A stretch of DNA of 64,000 nucleotides from Bolinopsis microptera (taxonomy: Eukaryota > Ctenophora > Tentaculata > Lobata > Bolinopsidae), in the NCBI RefSeq assembly GCF_026151205.1, contig NC_087076.1, positions 11,012,902-11,076,901 of the forward strand, given 5' to 3'. Position numbers and translations under genes: made by a program. Below, one piece after another: positions 46,971-60,736 of this stretch. Below the pieces are notes generated by a model. It ran no database searches and was not told where the DNA came from. It was given only the letters and a program-made list of their open reading frames with translations. Position 1 is the first letter of the stretch. Each line of letters begins with the position of its first letter.

Positions 46971-49400
46971 CTAGATACATTGGCTAGTGTTGGGTGGGAT
47001 CATGAATTTATCGTAAGAGTTATCCCCTTGGTAATTCTCATCAGTTAGCACCATATTCATAAGAGTTTCTTTGTATAACTTAGAAAATTTCTTAACGTCG
47101 TCACACTCTCTAAGGGACTTTGGTAATATGTTCCAGGCCTTAGTTCCTAGATAGTTAAACTCCTTGTGAGATCTTGATTTAGGAGTATAAAGATTGCAGT
47201 TTTCTGCCTCACGTGATCCACCAGAAATATACGAGAATTTTCCGATAAAATGCTTTGGACATGTTTCATTGATTATACGGTACATATATGAGCTAAGATG
47301 AACCTGTCGTCTCAAATGGAGAGGAAGCCATCCCATATTTTTGTATACATTAACCGACCTCTCTCTGATGTTTACATCTAGGGCTATTTTAGCAACCTTT
47401 TTGTACATGATATCTAACTCTCCTAGTCGTTTTTTATATGTTCTTGACCAGATGGTGTCTAAGTAGTCAAAATGTGGCAACATAAGTGCATTAGCAAACA
47501 TCTTCCTGAACTTAAGAGGGAGAAGTTTTTTTGATCTATACATAGCACCAATTCTTTTGGATATCTTTTTCTTAATGTTATCAATATGTTCATTAAATGT
47601 CAATCTGCTGTCAACTATAAGTCCAAGGTACTTATGGGATTTAGTTTCACAGATTACCAAAGTAAGGTCATCACAAATTTCAACAAGGATGGCATCAAGG
47701 TTAGGCTTAGAGTCAAGGATCATTAGTTTTGTTTTTTCATTATTCAGGGATAGTTTATTAGCCTGAAGCCATCTGATAACTAATTTCAACTCTTGTTTGA
47801 TGTTACCATAGTTTCCTCTAGATATATTGTCAAAATATAATGCACCGTCATCAGCAAATAGATAAGGTTTAGAAAATAGGCATGCATTAGGCAGGTCATT
47901 GATAAAAATGCTGAATAGAATTGGTCCTAATATACTTCCTTGAGGCACTCCAGAGTTCAATGAATGTAAACTGCTTATCCTACTCCCAACTCTAGTTTGC
48001 TGTAATCTATCTGTGAGGAAGCTCCTAAACCAGCTCAATGCAGTATCTTTTATTCCATAATGCTTCAGCTTTTGAATGAGAATATCATGGTTAACAGTAT
48101 CAAATGCCTTTCTGATGTCCAGGAAGATAATTGCAGGATGCTTGGCACTGTTCTTAGCAGTAAATATACGATCAAACAGATCTAACATGAGATAAGTTGT
48201 AGAGTGATCTTTACGGAAACCATATTGATGCTCTGAAAGTATTCCCTTTTCATCAAGATATTGAGTCAGTTGGGAGTTCACACAAAATTCGATGCACTTT
48301 CCAAGAATCGGTAAAATTGAGATTGGTCGATAATTACTAGGATTCTCAGTATCACCATCCTTATGGATTGGGGTGACTTTTGCAACCTTGCAGCTGTTTG
48401 GCATGATGCCACTGGATAAACTCAAATTTACAAGATGTGTTAATGGAGCAATAAATGCAGGTAAAATTTGTCTAAACACTCTCAATGGTATATGATCATT
48501 AGTGGATTTGCTACAAGGGATACTTGCCACATAGTCTAAGATATTGGACTCAGTTATTTCAGTAAAGCTATTCAAGCTGGTCTCGTTGTCAATCTGCTCA
48601 TTTTGTAGATAAGATAGAAATTCATTTTCATTTTCCAGCTGCACTTCTGCTTGGATCTTTGGACCTATTTCAGCAAAATATTTATTGGTGGTTTCAGCAT
48701 CAAGATTGTTATTGATATTGTTAGCTTTAACAGGCAGATTTGATGCTGTCTTTATCGTTTTCCATACACCCTTTAGATCATTCATGGCACACTTGGCTTT
48801 CAGTTCTGTTGCTAAGTTAGTCTTCCTATTAATTCTAGACAAATAGGTTGAATAGTTTCTCTGCCGTTTATATGCCATCCATAATGAGTCACATTTATTA
48901 CAGTGTATATTACCATTTGGATGTATACGTCTGTTCTTGTTGTGTGTTAAAAATTTACGGTAAAGTTTCCCTTTCAATTTCTTACTTTCTAAAAATTCTG
49001 GAGATGGCTTATGGATGTAATCACTATGGCACTTAATTTGTTTAATTGGACAGAAGTGATCATAGTAGTGATCAATATGTTCGTTTAAACCATCAACTGC
49101 ATCATTCAGACTAGTTGAATCTATTATTGGTCTATAATCACAAGTTTCCAAAAATTCTTTAAGAGCAGTAACATTCATTTTGCTGTGATCTCTTATTAGT
49201 AACTTCTTGAATTTTGAGGCCTTATGCACATTGAAATCGACAATGAACTTTACGACCTGATGATCTCCTATACAATCATCAAGGACTTTGCAGTCAAGAA
49301 ACTTGGAGTAAGTGTTTGTTATGACAACATCGATTGTGGTCTTTGTGATTCTGTTTCCTAGTTTAGCAATGCGGGTAATATCCTGAACTACCTGTACCAT
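46971..49400 (-). CDS. 5'-truncated LINE reverse transcriptase (CR1/L2/jockey-like)
   Basis: 809 codons. The N-terminus is only the last part of an APE endonuclease (TTIDVVITN ... GDHQVV). The reverse transcriptase follows: FLDIRKAFDTVNHDIL near residue 425, SGVPQGSILGPILF near 485 and the catalytic YLFADDGALYF near 516. The C-terminal block ends WNILPKSLRECDD. The first ATG is not a real start: the frame is open a little further and then meets a stop, as expected for 5' truncation during target-primed reverse transcription. The RT core has no internal stop, so the copy is fairly young but cannot be autonomous. Confidence 0.92.
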   Translation of the reverse strand: MVQVVQDITRIAKLGNRITKTTIDVVITNTYSKFLDCKVLDDCIGDHQVVKFIVDFNVHKASKFKKLLIRDHSKMNVTALKEFLETCDYRPIIDSTSLNDAVDGLNEHIDHYYDHFCPIKQIKCHSDYIHKPSPEFLESKKLKGKLYRKFLTHNKNRRIHPNGNIHCNKCDSLWMAYKRQRNYSTYLSRINRKTNLATELKAKCAMNDLKGVWKTIKTASNLPVKANNINNNLDAETTNKYFAEIGPKIQAEVQLENENEFLSYLQNEQIDNETSLNSFTEITESNILDYVASIPCSKSTNDHIPLRVFRQILPAFIAPLTHLVNLSLSSGIMPNSCKVAKVTPIHKDGDTENPSNYRPISILPILGKCIEFCVNSQLTQYLDEKGILSEHQYGFRKDHSTTYLMLDLFDRIFTAKNSAKHPAIIFLDIRKAFDTVNHDILIQKLKHYGIKDTALSWFRSFLTDRLQQTRVGSRISSLHSLNSGVPQGSILGPILFSIFINDLPNACLFSKPYLFADDGALYFDNISRGNYGNIKQELKLVIRWLQANKLSLNNEKTKLMILDSKPNLDAILVEICDDLTLVICETKSHKYLGLIVDSRLTFNEHIDNIKKKISKRIGAMYRSKKLLPLKFRKMFANALMLPHFDYLDTIWSRTYKKRLGELDIMYKKVAKIALDVNIRERSVNVYKNMGWLPLHLRRQVHLSSYMYRIINETCPKHFIGKFSYISGGSREAENCNLYTPKSRSHKEFNYLGTKAWNILPKSLRECDDVKKFSKLYKETLMNMVLTDENYQGDNSYDKFMIPPNTSQCI

Positions 49401-52340: not shown

Positions 52341-52738
52341 ATGTAAAACCGTTTTGTACGGCTGCAAAACCATAAAAACCAAAGTCACGTGAAATTTTTG
52401 GGCGAGCGAATTAGTAAGAGCCCATTTAAACCCTATGTCATGTGGGGTGATTCGGAATCAGCGTTCGAAAATATATTGAACCAGGTAGATTTAATTTTCA
52501 ACTGTCAGGGGCCCTTTTTGCTTTTAGAAAAATCTCGAAGATCGACTGCCTAGACTGTAAAGTGATTTAGCAATACACAATAGCACCCCCTATGGCTATA
52601 CTATTTTACCCCCTTTACTATTTTTCAGGCATTAGGACTCATACAGACTTGTACACGTTGATTTGGTTTGATTTTAATGCGCGTTGATTCGAAAAAGCCA
52701 CGTCAGCAACAATATTTTCAACAATCGCCCTGGCGGCC

Positions 52739-55700
52739 ATGGTGGCCAGCCAGGGCACAGTCCCGATCGCTCCTGATCCACCCCTTGGTCTAACTTATGG
52801 TCTAACTTATGGTCCTGGCACAGTCCCGACTGCTACCGCTCCTGTACTTAGTCTAACGTACGATCCTGGCAGCAACATCTCAGATGGCGGAAAAGATTGG
52901 AACTGCAACACTAAACAGAACAGAAACTCAACAAACATCGAACAGACACCGAACACTATATACTACTCTAGAAATGGTTTGGACACTTTAAATGATTGCT
53001 GTAATGGCCCTTATCAGTCGTACAAAGAGATAAGGACAACTATTTGTAAAAGTACATTACACGCAATAGAACACATTAGAATTGTAATTGTACATTGCAC
53101 AAGACTTTTCGAGCTAATATTCCTGGAGTTATTGCAGTCCTGCTTTAAAGCATTGATGAATATTGTAGGAACGTGCATGTATTATTTTGATGTATGGGGT
53201 AGACAAGGACATGACTTTATAGTGTGGTTTTGGAATGTGAGTTATAGTTTCGAGCGTTTAAACAGCAATTTGATTTATAACATATGCAGCAGATATATCT
53301 CTAATGTTATGAATGAACTTAATGACGGTTTTATGACGAGTATGTTACGGTCCTCTTGCTCAGCCATGTCACTGCTGCATGCCTCTTCTAGGTTTCGTTC
53401 CGCGCCCGCTGGTCTTTCCCAGCCAGAGCCCACCAGTAGAGCTCCGCCTCCTCGCGCCTTGTCTCCGCATGCGTCGCGAACCGCGTCTCAACTGAGTGTA
53501 CTTGTCCTTCAGCATAGCAACTCCCCCACATACACTCCTCACAATCCCACTCACAGTGCACAGTGTGACAGATTAGGTAGTGACCGGTCTTTGCGAGCTG
53601 GGGACTGGTTTCAGATAGCTGTAGTTGTCCTTCTGAGCCTCTGCTTCCTTGTTGCGACGCTCATAGCCGTTACTTTGCTGCTTTTACTTAGAGAACTCAG
53701 AAGCAGACCACTGGCCCCTACCGTTCCTGTTTACGTCAGTGAAGAAGTAGAAAACCAATGTCTTAGTTCTAGTAAAACCTCGTGTAAACAGATCTCTCAA
53801 CCCGGTTGTTTTTCCAACTCAATTTTCGATTTCTCTGCTTTGAAACTTGGTAGTTTGTTTCCACCACCTTGGCTGACTAATGCAACAGTGATGATGGCGA
53901 ACGGCTCTGGGAAAACAGACGAGGCTAAAGAATCAAGTGAAACAGAGGATAACGACACTGATATTACTGAAGTAAGTGCCACTGAAGGTCTCCTGAAGCC
54001 GACCAACAATGTGCTATCATCTTGCCAGGAAACTCCCGCCAAGAAGCTCAACAGACGTCTAAGTAACGTGAGCTGGGGTAACACTGAAACAAGTGATGAT
54101 GCTGGATCTGAGTCAAGTCTTTCAGGTTCACAGACAAAGAGTGATACAAACAGGCGGAGCACAGTGTGGATCAGAGATGACGGTGAGATATTTCTTGACA
54201 AAGGGAAGTCCTGCAAGCTTGGTTACATAAGCGACTACATCAGTACTGAGAGCAATGCTAACCTTTGTGCAGAACTCACTGCTACTGTTGGGAAACTCTG
54301 CACACCAAGCAACAAAGATAGGTACAAAGTCGTCCTCAAACATGGTGTGGAGACCAAACTGACAGATGTTGATCTAAAAAAGGGGGCAAAGAAGCTTAAG
54401 AAGACCGCAACCCCTAAAATGTCTGAACTATCCGTAAACCTGGACGAACCGTCTGAACTTTGCTCTTTTGTCAAATGCCACCAGGATCGTATCAACAAAA
54501 CGGTTGAGGACGTTTTTCAGTTGGATGTTAAGTTTGACAAGACCACTATTTATCGGATGAGTGACCCCTCACACAGTATTCCATACGGCAACACTAGCCA
54601 GGAAAACAGCAATTTCTCTCCAGTAGTTGCAGTGTTGGCACTTGGTCTGAAGGATCCACGCCCCATGTACATCAAGACCCAAGCTGGGAGTCAAGTAACC
54701 CACAAAGCGGCCCTTATGTCTGGCACGTTGTGCGTACTCAGTGGCAAGACAGAGTTGAGATACAAACGCTCGATACCTAGAGGTTGGGGAAAAGTAGAAG
54801 AACAGTACTTCCTGATATTTGAACAGAAATGTCCAACAGAAACTGACAGCGCCCTCAAAGGTCCACAGAAGAACCCTCAGTCAGACATCACCACGGAACA
54901 GGCTGAAGAAATGAACTTCCCCCTCCTTAAGACTCCCCCCACTGTTGTTCGAGTAACGTCTGTAGCAGACAACCTGGATTATGAAGCAGATGGAGGACTC
55001 CTGCTTGCATCAAGGATCAGTGCAGTTGTAGGGAAGATGGATGAGGGAACGGTAGATAAGGAGCTCATAAGAAGTCAAGTCTCAACTGCAGGATCTTTAT
55101 CTGAAAAGCGGACAAGACTTCAGAACAAAATGTGCATGTCAATCGGGGAACTTTCCATGTCAGCAGCCAATAACTCGATGTCTCACGGCATGAACTTCTC
55201 TCGATGTGACTCCCCGAGGATCGAAGACGTGGAAATGAAAGATGACATTGCATCAGTGCGTAATGCTCAAAAATGTGTGGAGAACTCTCTAAAGCATGTT
55301 GTGGATTCCATCGTATCTGTCAAGGCGAATGTAGCAACTCTCCAGGAAGCGACCAAACAACAAACTCAAAAAGACATCTCGCCTCACCCAACCAGCAACA
55401 CCGACGTTTTGGATGCGATAAGTGATTTGAAAAGTGCAGTGAGTGATTGCAACAACAGAATCGACAATCTGAGCAAGACAAATGTGTTTACACAAACGAT
55501 AAAGGAGTGCAATGGTAAAATTGATGACCTTGTGGAGAACATAAACGGCACAAAAGATGACCTTCAGTCAATGAGGAAGATTCTGAACGACCTTAGTCAA
55601 AATGGAGTAGATATCATGAAGAAATCGGAGGAAGACATGAGGAGCTACTACAATAGTGTCTTCTGCGATGAAACAAGGGAGCACATTAAAGACATCCACG

Positions 55701-56446
55701 CGTATGTAACACACCAAATGTGCGAGGTCGCAATTCAAACTGACCCTTTGATAAAAGAAATAGCAGCGTTAGGAGACCAACCGAACCTAGCCTCGCCTTC
55801 GCCCAAATTTGGTTTCCCCGATCCAATAAAGCCCTCCCTGAAAGTCTTGGTCGAAAGTGGGCAACCCATCAACGTTTGGCTTGTTACCGATTCAATTATG
55901 AGACACATTGATGAGTCATGCTTGGAATTTAGGAAATATAGGTTGAATTTCAAAAGAATTGACTTTACATGTAGTGAATCACTGACCGGTGAATACATGA
56001 TGGGGAGCAAAATACCAACAGAGAAGCCTCAACTAATATATGTACATCTCGGCATCAATGATATACACAAAGGAGAGGACATTACCAAAATCATCGACAA
56101 CTTCAAGATCTTTAATGAAATGCTAGAACTAGTATCTCCCACCACCAGACTGGTCATCTCTTGCCCCCTACTGAACGGAAACACCTACCAGAACCGACAC
56201 GTCTTTTCCTTGAGGAGATCCCTGTCCTTATTGGTCAATCAGCAGCAAGACGAGGACCCTAAAACAAAAAGGATTTTCCTTCAGAGAAATGATAAGTTCT
56301 TCATTAACACTCAGTCCACTTCTAAGCAGAACTTGATGTACTTCCGCGATAATCTCCATCTATCAGAAAGAGGAATGCATGCAATCACCAACACCATGAG
56401 AGACACCCTCGACAAGATCTTCAGGGAGTTTGAGCTTCCAGTCTAA
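52739..56446 (+). CDS. LINE ORF1: membrane segment, AlkB-like region, coiled coil, SGNH esterase
   Basis: A 1235-residue ORF1. A hydrophobic patch lies near residues 125-185. A strong predicted membrane helix lies at about 291-316 (FQIAVVVLLSLCFLVATL...), then an acidic Ser-rich stretch. About 560-700 resembles an AlkB-type 2-oxoglutarate dioxygenase (SIPYGN, PVVAVLALG, GTLCVLSGKTELRYKRSIP), but the iron ligands H and D fall on G617 and T619, the second His on R677, and the co-substrate arginines on acidic or polar residues. A predicted coiled coil spans about 846-968. The C-terminus is an SGNH hydrolase: nucleophile S1052 (TDSIM), GIND at 1105-1108, and D1204/H1207 (RDNLHLS). Esterase ORF1s are known in CR1/L2-type LINEs. 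ORF1 proteins bind element RNA; here membrane association may be added. The ATG sits in GCCATGG context. Confidence 0.85.
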   Translation: MVASQGTVPIAPDPPLGLTYGLTYGPGTVPTATAPVLSLTYDPGSNISDGGKDWNCNTKQNRNSTNIEQTPNTIYYSRNGLDTLNDCCNGPYQSYKEIRTTICKSTLHAIEHIRIVIVHCTRLFELIFLELLQSCFKALMNIVGTCMYYFDVWGRQGHDFIVWFWNVSYSFERLNSNLIYNICSRYISNVMNELNDGFMTSMLRSSCSAMSLLHASSRFRSAPAGLSQPEPTSRAPPPRALSPHASRTASQLSVLVLQHSNSPTYTPHNPTHSAQCDRLGSDRSLRAGDWFQIAVVVLLSLCFLVATLIAVTLLLLLRELRSRPLAPTVPVYVSEEVENQCLSSSKTSCKQISQPGCFSNSIFDFSALKLGSLFPPPWLTNATVMMANGSGKTDEAKESSETEDNDTDITEVSATEGLLKPTNNVLSSCQETPAKKLNRRLSNVSWGNTETSDDAGSESSLSGSQTKSDTNRRSTVWIRDDGEIFLDKGKSCKLGYISDYISTESNANLCAELTATVGKLCTPSNKDRYKVVLKHGVETKLTDVDLKKGAKKLKKTATPKMSELSVNLDEPSELCSFVKCHQDRINKTVEDVFQLDVKFDKTTIYRMSDPSHSIPYGNTSQENSNFSPVVAVLALGLKDPRPMYIKTQAGSQVTHKAALMSGTLCVLSGKTELRYKRSIPRGWGKVEEQYFLIFEQKCPTETDSALKGPQKNPQSDITTEQAEEMNFPLLKTPPTVVRVTSVADNLDYEADGGLLLASRISAVVGKMDEGTVDKELIRSQVSTAGSLSEKRTRLQNKMCMSIGELSMSAANNSMSHGMNFSRCDSPRIEDVEMKDDIASVRNAQKCVENSLKHVVDSIVSVKANVATLQEATKQQTQKDISPHPTSNTDVLDAISDLKSAVSDCNNRIDNLSKTNVFTQTIKECNGKIDDLVENINGTKDDLQSMRKILNDLSQNGVDIMKKSEEDMRSYYNSVFCDETREHIKDIHAYVTHQMCEVAIQTDPLIKEIAALGDQPNLASPSPKFGFPDPIKPSLKVLVESGQPINVWLVTDSIMRHIDESCLEFRKYRLNFKRIDFTCSESLTGEYMMGSKIPTEKPQLIYVHLGINDIHKGEDITKIIDNFKIFNEMLELVSPTTRLVISCPLLNGNTYQNRHVFSLRRSLSLLVNQQQDEDPKTKRIFLQRNDKFFINTQSTSKQNLMYFRDNLHLSERGMHAITNTMRDTLDKIFREFELPV

Positions 56447-56496
56447 ATTTTAGTCTTCAAATCATGACCACCAACCCAACCTCTTGAAAAAATACT

Positions 56497-59400
56497 ATGA
56501 ATTTACAATCCAAAATTATAAGCTGGAACATCCAATCAACAAATACAACTTTTGGCTCTAAGTTTGATGACCCTCAATTTTGTGCCGTCTTTGACAAGTT
56601 TCCTATTGTCTGCCTTCAAGAAATAAGACAACCTGTCAAACACTCGGGTTACAGGTCCTTCAATAAAACCCGCCGGGACAAAAAACATGGTGGCGTATGC
56701 ATAATGGTCCAAAACGAAATATCCAAAGGCGTTAAACTTGAAAAATCCACAATTGAAGATGTTGTTGCCTGTAAACTTGACAAAAATTACTTTGGCGTAG
56801 ATAATGATATATTCATTGTTAACTCATACATTAAGCCAGCTAACACTTCCTCTAAAAACTCAAATATTTCGGGCTTTGACACCATCCGTGAACTGGACCA
56901 ATTTCTCAATGTTCTTTTAAGTAAAGGTGATGTCATTACTTGTGGTGACTTCAACTCGCGTATCGGCCATGACATCGACTTTATCAAAGAGGACAAATGT
57001 GGCTACGAGAGCTTCATTCCCCTGCCAGAAGACTACACTCCACAAGAACTTCCAACCAGGAACTCAAAGGACAAAAAGTCGAACAATTACAAAAGACCCT
57101 TTCTAGAAATGCTTGTCAATAATGAACTCCATATTCTCAATGGGAGAACTTTAGGAGACTCATATGGTGACTTCACTTGTATTCAGACCAGCGGTGCCAG
57201 CGTTGTTGACTACTTTATTATATCCCCAAACTGCAGTAAGTATCTAAGTCATATGACAATCCAGCCGTTCACTTGCTTTTCTGATCATAAACCACTACTC
57301 CTGGCACTCAACTTCTCTCCTTCCAACACTCTTGTAAACACAAAGGCACTCCATGAAACTTACGCTCGAGCCCCACTTCGTTACAAAATAACTCCTGATA
57401 GCCTTTCAAGCTTACGGGATACAATGATGGACCCACTTGTGGAAGAATGTTCCAAAAGCCTCTTAGAAACAGATTATCCCGAAGATCTCATAGGTACATA
57501 CAAATTAAACGAAGATATCACAGTACACTTGAACAAAATAGCAGACAAATGTCTCCAAAAGACCAAACATCCCAAAATAACCAAAAAGGGATCAATAAAT
57601 AAACAACCCTGGTTCACACAAGCCACCAGAGAAGCTAAAATATCTTGTACTCGTGCAGCTCAAATTGTTTCTGATTTCCCCAATAGCGATTATCTTCGAA
57701 AAAATTTTTACCAGGTAAAAAATACATACAAAAGTTTAATTGACCGTACAAAAAACAAATATCTTGACAAACTGAATACAGATATTGAATCTGGTAAAAT
57801 TCTAAACTGGAAACAATTCAAAAAACTGAAAAAATTTAAAGGAAGAGTTGACAAATTTGATTGCCATGACATGGACAACTTTCAAAAATTCTTTGGTAAA
57901 CTTTATGCCAATGCACATAGCACCATAACTGTAGAGAATAAGGAAAAAATGCTTCAAAATGCAGAGGCTATTAACAATAATTTCCAACCATCCCCTGCAC
58001 AATCAATACTCAATGGCCAGATCTCTGTGGACGAAATATCTACTGCGATCTCTTCACTCAAAAACGGCAAAAGTTCCTCGGAGGATATGATATGTAATGA
58101 AATACTGAAGACCTTGTCCACAACAAACACACAACTCCTTTGCAAAGTCTTTAACCGCTGTTTGGACACTGGAACTTACCCATGGAACAACAGCATTATT
58201 ACACCCCTACACAAAAAAGGCGACAAAGATAATCCAGACAATTACAGAGCAGTTGCTGTGAGTAGTACAATCGGAAAATTATTTTCGACCATCATGTTAA
58301 ACAGGATAATCAAGTTCAAAAATGAATACAACCCGGACCCCATAAATCAACTTGGCTTCGCTAAAGGAGCTCAAACATATGACCACATACTCACACTCAA
58401 CACAATTACGTCTAAATACAAAAAGCTCAAGGTTCCCGTCTATGCTGTTTTTGTGGACTTCCGGAAGGCCTTCGACTCTGTTTGCCGTGAAGCTATTTTC
58501 TTGAAATTAGCTAAACTAGGTATCACTGGCAAAACATTTAATGTTCTTAAACATATGTATAAAAATTCCACTGGCCAGATAAAACTATCTGGATTTGTCA
58601 GCGAAAAATTTGATATCAATAAAGGAACTGAACAGGGTCATCCACTTTCCCCTGATCTATTTAAGATATACATCAGAGATCTTTCCCCTCGACTAGAATA
58701 TGATAACTGTCCGAAACTAATGAACCAACTTATCAGTCACTTACTATGGGCAGATGATCTGATACTCTTGGCACTGGACCCCAAAACCCTCCAAAAGCAA
58801 CTCGATGCTTTGAACAATTTCTGCTTGGAATGGGGCGTCGAAATTAATGCAGATAAAACTAAACTCATGAAATTTAATGCCCGTTTTGATACTTATCAGC
58901 CGGTTCCCCTCAAAATTGGTGATCACTTGTTAGAAGAAGTCGAGTCATACTGCTATCTAGGAATCGAAATACACAAATCCGGCACATTCACAAATGCCCG
59001 AACTGAGCTCAAAAAGAAAGCCATGCGTGCACTTTATGCCATGAAAAGCTCAGTAAACAAATCCAAATTATCATTCCGCTCTCTAACAACACTCTTTGAT
59101 GGTCTTATTAAACCTATCGTTCTTTACGGAGCGCCTATTTACACACCTAACATGGCTATCATAAAACACATAACAAAACAAGTCGATCTCAATATGGATG
59201 CCGACACAAAAACAAAATTTCAAACTAGTATCCTCAAGAAAGTTAGCCTTCTGAACAGCGAAAAAGTTCACCTTCACTTTCTTAAATGGTCACTGGGGGT
59301 AAATCGTAAAGCCAGCAACGCAGGCGTCTGGGGTGAGTCAGGCCGCTACCCATTAATCTATGGATGTATTAACCTCACTCTCAAATATAGCCAACGTTTG

Positions 59401-60258
59401 AAAAATCTCAAAGATAACTCCCTTGTCTCCTTAGCTTTCAAAGAACAGATGAACATGAAATTGGACTGGTACAGGGGTTTGGAGCCTGTCCTCGCGCTAG
59501 ACCCATGTTTCTCTACCGATCATGTCACAGCCTACCGCACACTCAAAAACAATCACTCCAAGTTACTTTTCGAAAGAAACCCGAGTATCGCAAAACCACC
59601 AAAAGAGGACTTTCTTATTCACAACGGTTTCAAGAAACGAATTCCTCCTCAATCAACACAACCCATCGGGAGTAAAATATTCACACCACACGTCATTACT
59701 AAAACTTTGAAATGTAACTTTAGAGAATATTGGGGGTCCTGTATCAACACTTCTCGGAAATTAGAATTCTATCGTGACCTAAAATCCAAATTTAACAAAG
59801 AGTATTACCTAGATAGTGTCATTAAATATGCAGACCGTGCTAATATCACAAGACTGCGGATCAGTGCACATCGACTCGAAATTGAACTTGGCCGATATAA
59901 TCAAACTCCTCGTGACGAGCGAATATGCTCCTGGTGCAATATAGTCTTAGGTTCTGGTATTATTGAGAATGAAGATCACTTCCTTAACCATTGTGATCTT
60001 AACGCTGCATCGAGGCGAAAAGTCCTAGACAAGATCCAGTCACTCATATCAAATCCAATCAAACCGTCTGCGACATCTTATTCTGTTCACAATGTCATCC
60101 CTGGAGCAAACGTCCTCAAATTCATCAGCAACAACAGTGAAATCATTGAACTTATCACGAACGAAAGTCAAGTCCACCTCACGAGAGTCGTTGCTAGGTT
60201 TGCCACTACGTGTTTTAACAACCGCAAGAAATTTGTTGACTCTCTGGCCAGTACATGA
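56497..60258 (+). CDS. LINE ORF2: APE endonuclease and reverse transcriptase with zinc knuckle
   Basis: 1253 residues. The APE-type endonuclease (about 1-270) shows IISWNIQST, CLQEIRQ, CGDFNSRIG and CFSDHKPLLLAL, giving the usual Asn, Glu, Asp-Asn and Ser-Asp-His residues. The reverse transcriptase (about 500-800) shows ITPLHKKGDKDNPDNYRAV, YAVFVDFRKAFDSV (near 652) and the catalytic LLWADDLILL (near 750). The C-terminal domain has C1144-x2-C1147-x13-H1161-x4-C1166, a zinc knuckle with the HFLNHC motif seen in several LINE clades. The protein should nick target DNA and copy element RNA in the nucleus. No stop or frameshift is seen. Clade assignment needs a tree; the motifs differ clearly from the LINE at 46971-49400 (WADD here, FADD there). 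Confidence 0.95.
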   Translation: MNLQSKIISWNIQSTNTTFGSKFDDPQFCAVFDKFPIVCLQEIRQPVKHSGYRSFNKTRRDKKHGGVCIMVQNEISKGVKLEKSTIEDVVACKLDKNYFGVDNDIFIVNSYIKPANTSSKNSNISGFDTIRELDQFLNVLLSKGDVITCGDFNSRIGHDIDFIKEDKCGYESFIPLPEDYTPQELPTRNSKDKKSNNYKRPFLEMLVNNELHILNGRTLGDSYGDFTCIQTSGASVVDYFIISPNCSKYLSHMTIQPFTCFSDHKPLLLALNFSPSNTLVNTKALHETYARAPLRYKITPDSLSSLRDTMMDPLVEECSKSLLETDYPEDLIGTYKLNEDITVHLNKIADKCLQKTKHPKITKKGSINKQPWFTQATREAKISCTRAAQIVSDFPNSDYLRKNFYQVKNTYKSLIDRTKNKYLDKLNTDIESGKILNWKQFKKLKKFKGRVDKFDCHDMDNFQKFFGKLYANAHSTITVENKEKMLQNAEAINNNFQPSPAQSILNGQISVDEISTAISSLKNGKSSSEDMICNEILKTLSTTNTQLLCKVFNRCLDTGTYPWNNSIITPLHKKGDKDNPDNYRAVAVSSTIGKLFSTIMLNRIIKFKNEYNPDPINQLGFAKGAQTYDHILTLNTITSKYKKLKVPVYAVFVDFRKAFDSVCREAIFLKLAKLGITGKTFNVLKHMYKNSTGQIKLSGFVSEKFDINKGTEQGHPLSPDLFKIYIRDLSPRLEYDNCPKLMNQLISHLLWADDLILLALDPKTLQKQLDALNNFCLEWGVEINADKTKLMKFNARFDTYQPVPLKIGDHLLEEVESYCYLGIEIHKSGTFTNARTELKKKAMRALYAMKSSVNKSKLSFRSLTTLFDGLIKPIVLYGAPIYTPNMAIIKHITKQVDLNMDADTKTKFQTSILKKVSLLNSEKVHLHFLKWSLGVNRKASNAGVWGESGRYPLIYGCINLTLKYSQRLKNLKDNSLVSLAFKEQMNMKLDWYRGLEPVLALDPCFSTDHVTAYRTLKNNHSKLLFERNPSIAKPPKEDFLIHNGFKKRIPPQSTQPIGSKIFTPHVITKTLKCNFREYWGSCINTSRKLEFYRDLKSKFNKEYYLDSVIKYADRANITRLRISAHRLEIELGRYNQTPRDERICSWCNIVLGSGIIENEDHFLNHCDLNAASRRKVLDKIQSLISNPIKPSATSYSVHNVIPGANVLKFISNNSEIIELITNESQVHLTRVVARFATTCFNNRKKFVDSLAST

Positions 60259-60496
60259 ACAGTGAACACTGAAAATCACTGTACCCGCTTTTGTTTCTTT
60301 TCGCGCAACGACGAGTGCAAACTGCAAAGTGACCTGGCTCAAGCATTACAGCATTACCAAGGCGACTGAAAACAAAATATTCTATGTCAAATCTTTATTT
60401 TTCACTTTAGTTAAGTTATATTAATATAATAAATTCAAATCTTATGATATTGTTATTATCTTAACAGTTACTATTGTAGCTCAAGATTTTAAATTT

Positions 60497-60532
60497 GTAT
60501 TCCTTGTATTCCTTGTATTCCTTGTATTCCTT
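60497..60532. repeat. 9-bp tandem tail of the LINE
   Basis: Four perfect copies of GTATTCCTT at the presumed 3' end of the LINE. Confidence 0.9.
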
Positions 60533-60736
60533 GAAGTCGTCCAGAAGGTTTGTTTTTAGTTCAAAACATGGTAGAGGAATTATTACTGATATGATTACAT
60601 ATTTAAAAAGTCAGGTGACAGTCGAGTGTAGTCAGTGCGATTAATCATCATTCGGCTCTGAGATTGGGATTATGAGGGTGTAGCGCACAGTACATATTAA
60701 TTCAGCAGCTGCTAGAGGTTGGCAAACACTTCAGCT

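Follow-up and report, generated by a model that had tools for sequence, protein, structure and literature searches.

An AlkB-derived region with substituted catalytic ligands in the ORF1 protein of a ctenophore LINE

The 64,000-nucleotide stretch of Bolinopsis microptera DNA analysed here, hereafter denoted the window, contains a long open reading frame whose product appears to join an AlkB-like region to an SGNH esterase. The question that it raises is whether this region is a dioxygenase domain now devoid of catalytic residues and, if so, why a retrotransposon should keep it. A first-pass annotation, made from the sequence letters, had proposed a pseudo-dioxygenase in an otherwise intact element; profile homology, ligand substitution in two families and the presence of related LINEs with intact ligands all support that proposal.

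The element and the parts of ORF1

The open frame belongs to a LINE with the following features:

52647..60527, + strand: full-length LINE, comprising a leader of about 92 nt, ORF1, ORF2 and a 3′ end that carries a short tail of repeats; the limits given are approximate
52739..56446, + strand: ORF1, 1235 residues, an uninterrupted open frame
53615..53671, + strand: strongly hydrophobic segment, residues 293–311, a possible transmembrane helix (Kyte-Doolittle mean 3.06 over 19 residues)
54161..54838, + strand: AlkB-derived region, residues 475–700 (hhalign, Pfam PF13532, shuffle control)
55214..55738, + strand: probable coiled coil, residues 826–1000 (several weak, below-cut-off Pfam matches; same place in the domain order of relatives)
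55859..56443, + strand: SGNH/GDSL esterase domain, residues 1041–1235
56497..60258, + strand: ORF2, 1253 residues, endonuclease (PF03372, E 2.7e-6) and reverse transcriptase (PF00078, E 1.4e-28)
60495..60530, + strand: 3′ tail of four TTGTATTCC repeats, read from the sequence

The 5′ end is placed by four copies (L002, L003, L005 and L006) whose matches start at 52640–52647, a further copy (L004) matching only from 52758; at the 3′ end, matching stops at 60524–60533 in three copies (L046, L047 and L048). No clear target-site duplication was found at the LINE ends. ORF2 has the APE endonuclease and reverse transcriptase, by Pfam, of an APE-type LINE, and the ORF2 matches listed are dispersed copies with a common 3′ end and 5′ truncation, as expected of a LINE; many of the 60 matches listed stop at residue 752, with varying starts. 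Six of the 39 ORF1 matches in the same genome, the window included, span residue 1–7 to residue 1235 without a stop. The window element is a recent, multi-copy LINE, and copies with the altered AlkB domain have been amplified recently.

The esterase triad named in the first-pass annotation (S1052, D1204, H1207) is present, with SGNH/GDSL Pfam scores below cut-off (PF13472, E 0.0032; PF00657, E 0.004). Amongst solved structures, the domain matches the SGNH esterase 6njc (E 3.3e-4) and, weakly, 4c1b, the structure of the ZfL2-1 LINE ORF1 esterase (E 0.17). The triad and these sequence relatives supply the SGNH esterase by which a type IV ORF1 is recognised. The Pfam families matched weakly by residues 826–1000 are presumably coiled-coil-rich. 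The hydrophobic segment sits within an N-terminal extension (residues 1–384) which is itself under purifying selection; between the window and an older copy, L033, its dN/dS is 0.23, with 23 of the 51 changes non-synonymous (p 8e-7).

AlkB homology and the ligand positions

The AlkB-derived region consists of an N-terminal part (475–525), a rewritten middle (526–588) and a core (589–700). When a query profile built from the window sequence and a single diverged relative was compared by hhalign with 14 AlkB domains from the same genome, the core matched across about residues 583–684 with an E value of 3.5e-9 and a score of 60.8; the best of 200 column shuffles scored 22.5 and the reversed profile 12.4, which rules out chance resemblance. 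A longer match covers about residues 485–689 (E 4.2e-5, probability 70%). The AlkB-like stretch had earlier been placed at about residues 560–700; its homology stands, the shuffles scoring far below it, and the domain likely starts further upstream, near residue 475–485, with the N-terminal part (485–582 in the longer match, and also aligned by MAFFT) more weakly supported.

Scanned alone, residues 475–700 match AlkB and no other Pfam family (PF13532, E 0.0031, below cut-off), in line with the profile check that had been suggested for them; PF13532 is likewise the sole family found in the domains of two relatives, L009 (E 4.6e-6) and L030 (E 4.5e-6), again below cut-off. In a Pfam scan of the whole ORF1, AlkB is a weak match among others (E 0.055), and a direct blastp comparison of the window and L009 frames gives E 4e-20 across residues 433–694. 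By sequence homology, then, the region falls within the AlkB family on the hhalign result, PF13532 remaining under its curated cut-off. The two-sequence profile retrieved no solved structure from the PDB up to E 10, which counts against easy recognition of the homology, and an AlphaFold2 model of the region from the single sequence was uninformative about its fold (mean pLDDT 33); a double-stranded beta-helix fold would follow from the homology. One scan of viral contigs for relatives gave 173 pattern matches, of which 0 were confirmed.

Alignment to intact AlkB domains locates the ligand positions as follows:

54587..54595, + strand: H-x-D iron-ligand position, occupied by G617-N618-T619 (hhalign and MAFFT)
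54767..54769, + strand: position of the second iron-binding histidine, occupied by R677 (hhalign and MAFFT)
54803..54823, + strand: positions of the R-x5-R 2-oxoglutarate arginines, occupied by Q689 and E695 (MAFFT; E695 by ungapped counting)

The motifs on which the first-pass annotation relied lie where it put them (SIPYG617-N-T619, PVVAVLALG at 628, GTLCVLSG at 662, R677 in RYKRSIP, and QYFLIFE at 689), and both aligners agree with its assignment of H-x-D to G617-N-T619 and of the second histidine to R677. The arginines, as it also held, are replaced by polar or acidic residues, Q689 and E695; as the hhalign match ends at about 684, their placement comes from MAFFT alone, and E695 was reached by ungapped counting because a MAFFT gap opens just before it.

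All five ligand positions are therefore substituted, and the replacements are the same in every close copy (8 of 8); the window has neither the H-x-D...H iron ligands nor the R-x5-R pair of an AlkB enzyme. G617-N618-T619 is common to 10 of the 11 loci read (L001–L008, L033 and L036; L035 does not cover the site), as are R677 and the pair Q689 and E695, L033 being the locus that does not cover these sites. A second altered family has four of five positions substituted and keeps the last histidine only (L009, L029, L030, L043 and L044), its R-x5-R positions being E and F in L030 by ungapped counting after the SIP motif. The motif scan for this family, built from the letters of L009 and L030, matched five of the six loci given; the unmatched one is a broken relic, L042, in which alanine replaces the distal histidine (tblastn). 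Given the ligand loss, the window domain is predicted to perform no oxidative demethylation. We infer a domain that is catalytically dead with its beta-barrel core retained; its role in the ORF1 particle would be chemistry-free, either in contacting nucleic acid or as a structural module.

Other residues recur in the altered families. V-T-H (H655) is found in the window family, L030 and relics L039 and L040, and is absent from L013–L015, which have intact ligands; C665 recurs alongside it. Such residues might give the altered clade a new site with a different binding or catalytic function, which we regard as very improbable; the families are few, and a cysteine also occupies the C665 place in the intact-ligand L010 and L018, so that C665 was dropped as a hallmark of the altered clade.

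Relatives and retention of the altered domain

The genome holds 151 AlkB matches. The 18 AlkB domains examined keep their ligands, and 14 of these precede a LINE ORF2; a motif scan found the ligands in 17 of the 18, which is not an unbiased count because the scan asks for the ligands themselves, and the one it missed, L022, has them when read by eye. It had been asked earlier whether some related ORF1s keep H-x-D...H...R: L013–L016, and others of the 18, do. L013–L016 have the same order as the window, namely AlkB, probable coiled coil and SGNH (by MAFFT for L013–L015, by reading for L016). The window ORF2 is 41% identical over 768 residues to L037, the ORF2 of the L015 element, and the ORF2s of the two altered families are 45–48% identical. 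In the ORF2 tree a single clade with support 100/100 unites the window and L028/L029, whose AlkB is altered, with L037/L014, whose ligands are intact; within it, grouping of the window with L028/L029 is favoured (77/62). The AU test does not reject the two other arrangements (p 0.21 and 0.27), so that the ligands may have been lost once, in a common ancestor, or twice independently. The ORF1 alignment (MAFFT) comprised six sequences (the window, L029, L030, L013, L014 and L015); relics L039–L042 were too broken for it and were compared by tblastn.

The explanation that we favour, at slightly better than even confidence, is that an AlkB-type dioxygenase domain in a LINE ORF1 lost its catalytic residues and was kept as a non-catalytic, RNA-binding or structural part of the particle. 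An ancestor with an active AlkB would presumably have demethylated the RNA or cDNA of the element; the chemistry would then have been dropped and a binding or scaffolding role retained. In such a particle, ORF1 chains would be joined by the probable coiled coil, the AlkB-derived core would help to keep the RNA of the element in place, and the particle would be attached to membranes by the esterase together with the hydrophobic N-terminal segment. Against this explanation stands the domain middle (526–588), which is lysine-rich in the window and short and acidic in L030 (MAFFT); we take this to be the location of the nucleotide-recognition lid in active AlkB, and with the middle rewritten, substrate recognition may be gone.

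The same rewriting, with a length that differs between families, would also suit a decaying passenger, that is, a useless AlkB remnant carried because ORF1 must stay in frame. Substitution at five of five ligand positions fits this too, as does a constraint weaker than in the intact domain (dN/dS 0.28–0.37, versus 0.05 for L013 against L015). We nonetheless consider it unlikely. Between the window and L030 families, whose ORF2s have diverged as given above, the AlkB core shows the highest conservation within ORF1 (38 of 107 positions identical, versus 233 of 946 elsewhere; p 0.02), with an edge that is not significant when the esterase (p 0.08) or the coiled-coil region (p 0.17) is compared singly, on a measure that is rough because N-terminal extensions without homology recognisable by blastp also align at 74 of 300. 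Homology between those extensions is unsupported (best blastp E 0.16). The whole domain is free of stops in seven window-family and eight second-family copies, and both kinds of change are rarer in it than in the rest of ORF1. Pooled over the window–L033 and L029–L030 pairs only, 8 of 15 changes in the altered domain are non-synonymous, below the neutral share (p 0.03); neither pair is significant singly (p 0.18 and 0.08), and purifying selection on the altered domain is thus modestly supported. In the dN/dS counts, L033 is without part of the core, L034 is without the domain and L035 covers the domain end only; L036 (0.26 in the core, 0.57 over the whole domain) was excluded from the pooled test because frame changes break it.

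Synonymous changes are themselves scarce in the domain, with 3 at 131 sites versus 57 at 532 elsewhere between the window and L033 (p 0.001), and 4 at 129 versus 71 at 773 between L029 and L030 (p 0.016); low divergence extends over approximately nt 1351–1980 of ORF1 in L033 and L036, and in L045 over the part that this copy covers. This is the pattern expected if the stretch were conserved at the nucleotide level, as a cis-acting signal in RNA or DNA, or had been exchanged between copies, the protein not being the reason, a reading to which we give little credence. RNA structure was rejected as the cause, as folding of the domain is ordinary (z +1.29, compared with +1.33 for a control stretch), and the intact-ligand pair L013–L015 has no drop in synonymous change. 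Moreover, L033, L036 and L045 seem to form a single older subfamily and do not count as independent cases; one recombination event could therefore account for what is seen in the window.

A more specific version of the favoured explanation, which we hold to be rather unlikely, is that one LINE clade converted its AlkB eraser into a reader without catalysis or a module that holds RNA, and that this might bind and shield methylated RNA of the element where an active enzyme would demethylate it. If so, one genome would hold the series from intact enzyme, through distal histidine only, to no ligand.

Comparison with known systems

Among the matches listed from open-licence full-text literature, outside which most subscription journals lie, no description of AlkB in LINEs was found. 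If our reading is true, the domain would be a natural pseudo-enzyme inside a mobile element, and it broadens what LINE ORF1 proteins are known to contain. Many AlkB-carrying LINEs, together with a clade in which a seemingly disabled eraser is kept, offer a natural setting in which to tell AlkB chemistry apart from a binding or scaffolding role. This bears on the effect of RNA methylation, favourable or unfavourable, on LINEs in general; for human L1, one study reports that m6A helps the element and that the eraser ALKBH5 suppresses it (PMC7873242).

With the AlkB/ALKBH 2OG-Fe(II) dioxygenases (PF13532), the window shares the beta-strand core at about 583–684 and, more weakly, sequence from about 485, but differs in its substituted iron and 2-oxoglutarate ligands, rewritten middle and sub-cut-off Pfam score. 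L013–L016 of the same genome share its domain order, but have intact H-x-D, H and R-x5-R. With type IV LINEs such as ZfL2-1, as described in the accessible portions of two reports (PMC4120745, PMC3905857), it shares the C-terminal SGNH-type esterase with triad residues, the preceding probable coiled coil, and the APE-type endonuclease and reverse transcriptase of ORF2; to these it adds the AlkB-derived region and the 384-residue N-terminal extension with its hydrophobic segment. An orchid Ty3/Gypsy element is likewise a retrotransposon with an AlkB domain but, according to the accessible part of its description, is an LTR element with intact ligands and demonstrated demethylase activity; a demethylase-dead histidine mutant of that protein still bound RNA (PMC9289625), a precedent for RNA binding by AlkB without catalysis.

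The element and its copies

The element containing the AlkB-like ORF is a LINE, with the following features in the window:

52739-56446, forward strand: ORF1, open, 1235 residues
52739-53890: N-terminal extension (ORF1 residues 1-384), with a strong hydrophobic segment at residues 293-311
56497-60258, forward strand: ORF2 (endonuclease and reverse transcriptase), downstream of ORF1

The matches of four other copies in the genome (L002, L003, L005 and L006) start within 7 bases of one another, at 52640-52647, that of a fifth (L004) starts only at 52758, and those of three copies end at 60524-60533, where there is a short repeat tail. ORF1 has at least 39 matches in its own genome, six of which, the window included, are free of stops from residue 1-7 through to 1235; the list of 60 ORF2 matches includes 17 that extend over the full 752-residue query at 99-100% identity (one with a stop) and many others that are 5′-cut with a common 3′ end, these ORF1 and ORF2 counts being lower bounds. 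Re-reading of the sequence bore out the motifs and residue numbers given for ORF1 in the first-pass annotation.

The N-terminal extension is under clear purifying selection (dN/dS 0.23, window versus the older copy L033) which, together with the hydrophobic segment, fits a membrane link. Hydrophobic segments are also present in the N-terminal region of L029 and L030, members of a second, related LINE family with an altered AlkB region; blastp found no match between that region and the window extension.

Homology to AlkB and loss of the ligands

With the whole of ORF1 as query, the Pfam AlkB family PF13532 is one of several weak matches (E 0.055); with residues 475-700 alone it is the sole family (E 0.0031), as it is for the same region of L009, a diverged relative from the second family (E 4.6e-6), and for L030 (E 4.5e-6); none of the three regional matches reaches the curated cut-off. 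In blastp, the ORFs of the window and L009 align at E 4e-20 (window residues 433-694). A joint profile of the two matches one built from 14 AlkB domains of the same genome at E 3.5e-9 (probability 96%, approximately residues 583-684), and the AlkB domains of L024 and L027, which look like host genes judging by about 1 kb of flank each, at E 4.2e-5 (probability 70%, approximately residues 485-689). In a scripted re-run of the controls the real score was 60.8, with 22.5 for the best of 200 column shuffles and 12.4 for the reversed profile. The original assignment of the region as AlkB-like is thus upheld by the profile match, and sequence comparison establishes its homology to AlkB, firmly for the core and, since the longer match is weaker, less firmly for the N-terminal part. 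Counting against it, the joint profile matched no solved structure at E up to 10, and a single-sequence AlphaFold2 model of the region had an uninformative pLDDT of 33. The AlkB fold is taken as a predicted consequence of the homology.

The iron ligands (H-x-D and a distal His) and both 2-oxoglutarate-binding arginines are invariant when the 14 AlkB domains are aligned, these rows having been preselected by a motif scan requiring these same residues. Against these intact domains the window has G617 and T619 at H-x-D, R677 at the second His and, from MAFFT only, Q689 and E695 at the arginines, E695 being placed by ungapped counting because the MAFFT gap opens just before it. The loss of ligands claimed in the first-pass annotation therefore stands. 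All eight window-family copies covering the five sites (L001-L008, L001 being the window's own) carry identical residues, as does the older copy L036, and L033 and L035 agree with the window at the sites they cover. The five copies of the second family that were read (L009, L029, L030, L043 and L044) retain the distal His and have lost H-x-D and both arginines. Among broken relics, the distal His is replaced by Ala in L042, H-x-D is missing from L039 and L040, and R stands in place of the second His in L041; L039-L041 are taken as one further putative subfamily.

In L009 (524-4545, reverse strand) separate ORFs, overlapping by four bases, encode the AlkB-like part and the esterase; in L029 and L030 a single ORF encodes both.

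Intact AlkB domains in the same genome

PF13532 has 151 matches in the 264.6 Mb genome, all above the family cut-off among the matches listed. Whether some related ORF1s keep H-x-D...H...R had been raised at the outset. Of these matches 18 places were fetched, for variety rather than at random, and all 18 have H-x-D, H and R-x5-R: 17 according to a motif scan built on these very residues, and L022, which the scan missed, by reading. The AlkB ORF is followed by a presumed LINE ORF2 (as read) in 14 of the 18. These AlkB-carrying loci (for example L010, L011, L013-L022, L025 and L026) show several arrangements, with AlkB before or after a probable coiled coil and a weak PHD match before AlkB in L017. 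L012 and L023 are long ORFs with AlkB. SGNH-type motifs lie 5′ or 3′ of the AlkB part in most of the 18; PF13472 exceeds its cut-off only in L012 and falls below it in L010, L015 and L020, and L013 and L017 gave no SGNH/GDSL match in Pfam up to E 1. In the L023 frame, SGNH and AlkB are followed by Helitron_like_N and PIF1 helicase domains; a frame of this kind has these coordinates:

L051:7083-9998 and L052:2-6700: very long open frame, SGNH esterase and AlkB before Helitron_like_N and PIF1

On these predicted domains, the AlkB-SGNH pair of the LINEs is also in a Helitron-type DNA transposon. The many intact AlkB LINEs may matter more than the copy with the altered domain. Two further window features were noted, the second named by reading:

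46971-49400, reverse strand: partial ORF2 of another LINE, placed in the ORF2 tree with the AlkB LINEs L010, L018 and L021
17873-18511, forward strand: ORF with a divergent homeodomain-like stretch at its end

In L013-L016, as in the window, AlkB comes first, then the probable coiled coil, then SGNH (shown for L013-L015 by alignment and for L016 by reading). Among elements whose ligands are intact, theirs is the nearest ORF2: L037, into which L015 continues, is 41% identical to the window over 768 residues, compared with 45-48% in the altered family L028-L030 and at most 31% in matched LINEs of other groups. Window, L028/L029 and L037/L014 form one ORF2 clade (support 100/100), whose join to its neighbours is, by the tree program's warning, one of long branches meeting; inside the clade, support for uniting the two altered families is only 77/62, and alternative arrangements are not rejected. 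As other AlkB LINEs have intact ligands, ligand loss, in one event or two, is the simplest direction.

Apparent retention, possible role and known systems

Between the window and L030 families, the core (589-700) is identical at 38/107 positions, versus 47/183 in the esterase, 39/144 in the coiled-coil region and 233/946 in all the rest (core versus rest, p 0.02; core versus esterase or coiled-coil region alone, not significant), a rough measure because N-terminal extensions with no homology recognised by blastp also align, at 74/300. In the AlkB domain, window and L033 differ by 3 synonymous and 4 non-synonymous changes (p 0.18), and L029 and L030 by 4 and 4 (p 0.08), neither significant alone; pooled, p is 0.03. 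The intact domain (L013 versus L015) has dN/dS 0.05, very strong purifying selection far above the constraint on the altered one, which therefore seems, from these substitution patterns, to be retained under weaker constraint. In both pairs the altered domain has few synonymous changes as well (p 0.001 and 0.016). Over ORF1 nucleotides ~1351-1980 (window 54089-54718), divergence from older copies (L033, L036 and the part covered by L045) is unusually low relative to the surroundings, synonymous sites included. Recombination or a nucleotide-level signal is a possible cause; RNA structure offered no explanation for the stretch.

We propose that the AlkB-derived fold, non-catalytic, would work as an RNA-contacting or structural module of the ORF1 particle, flanked by an N-terminus that may tether it to membranes on one side and by the coiled coil and esterase on the other. 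That the retained fold binds RNA is inferred; according to PMC9289625, a His mutant of an orchid Gypsy AlkB without demethylase activity still bound RNA, a precedent for binding without chemistry. Human L1 retrotransposition, as described in PMC7873242, is helped by m6A and suppressed by ALKBH5, which by analogy suggests a reason for dropping AlkB chemistry. The ZfL2-1 esterase is active, and a role for lipids is proposed by the authors of that work (PMC3905857).

Esterase ORF1s (type IV; PMC4120745) and AlkB inside an LTR retrotransposon (PMC9289625) are already known. No description of AlkB in a LINE ORF1 was found among the matches listed from open-licence full-text literature; the element adds to these known kinds a LINE in which ORF1 joins AlkB and SGNH, the AlkB part having turned into a predicted pseudo-enzyme.
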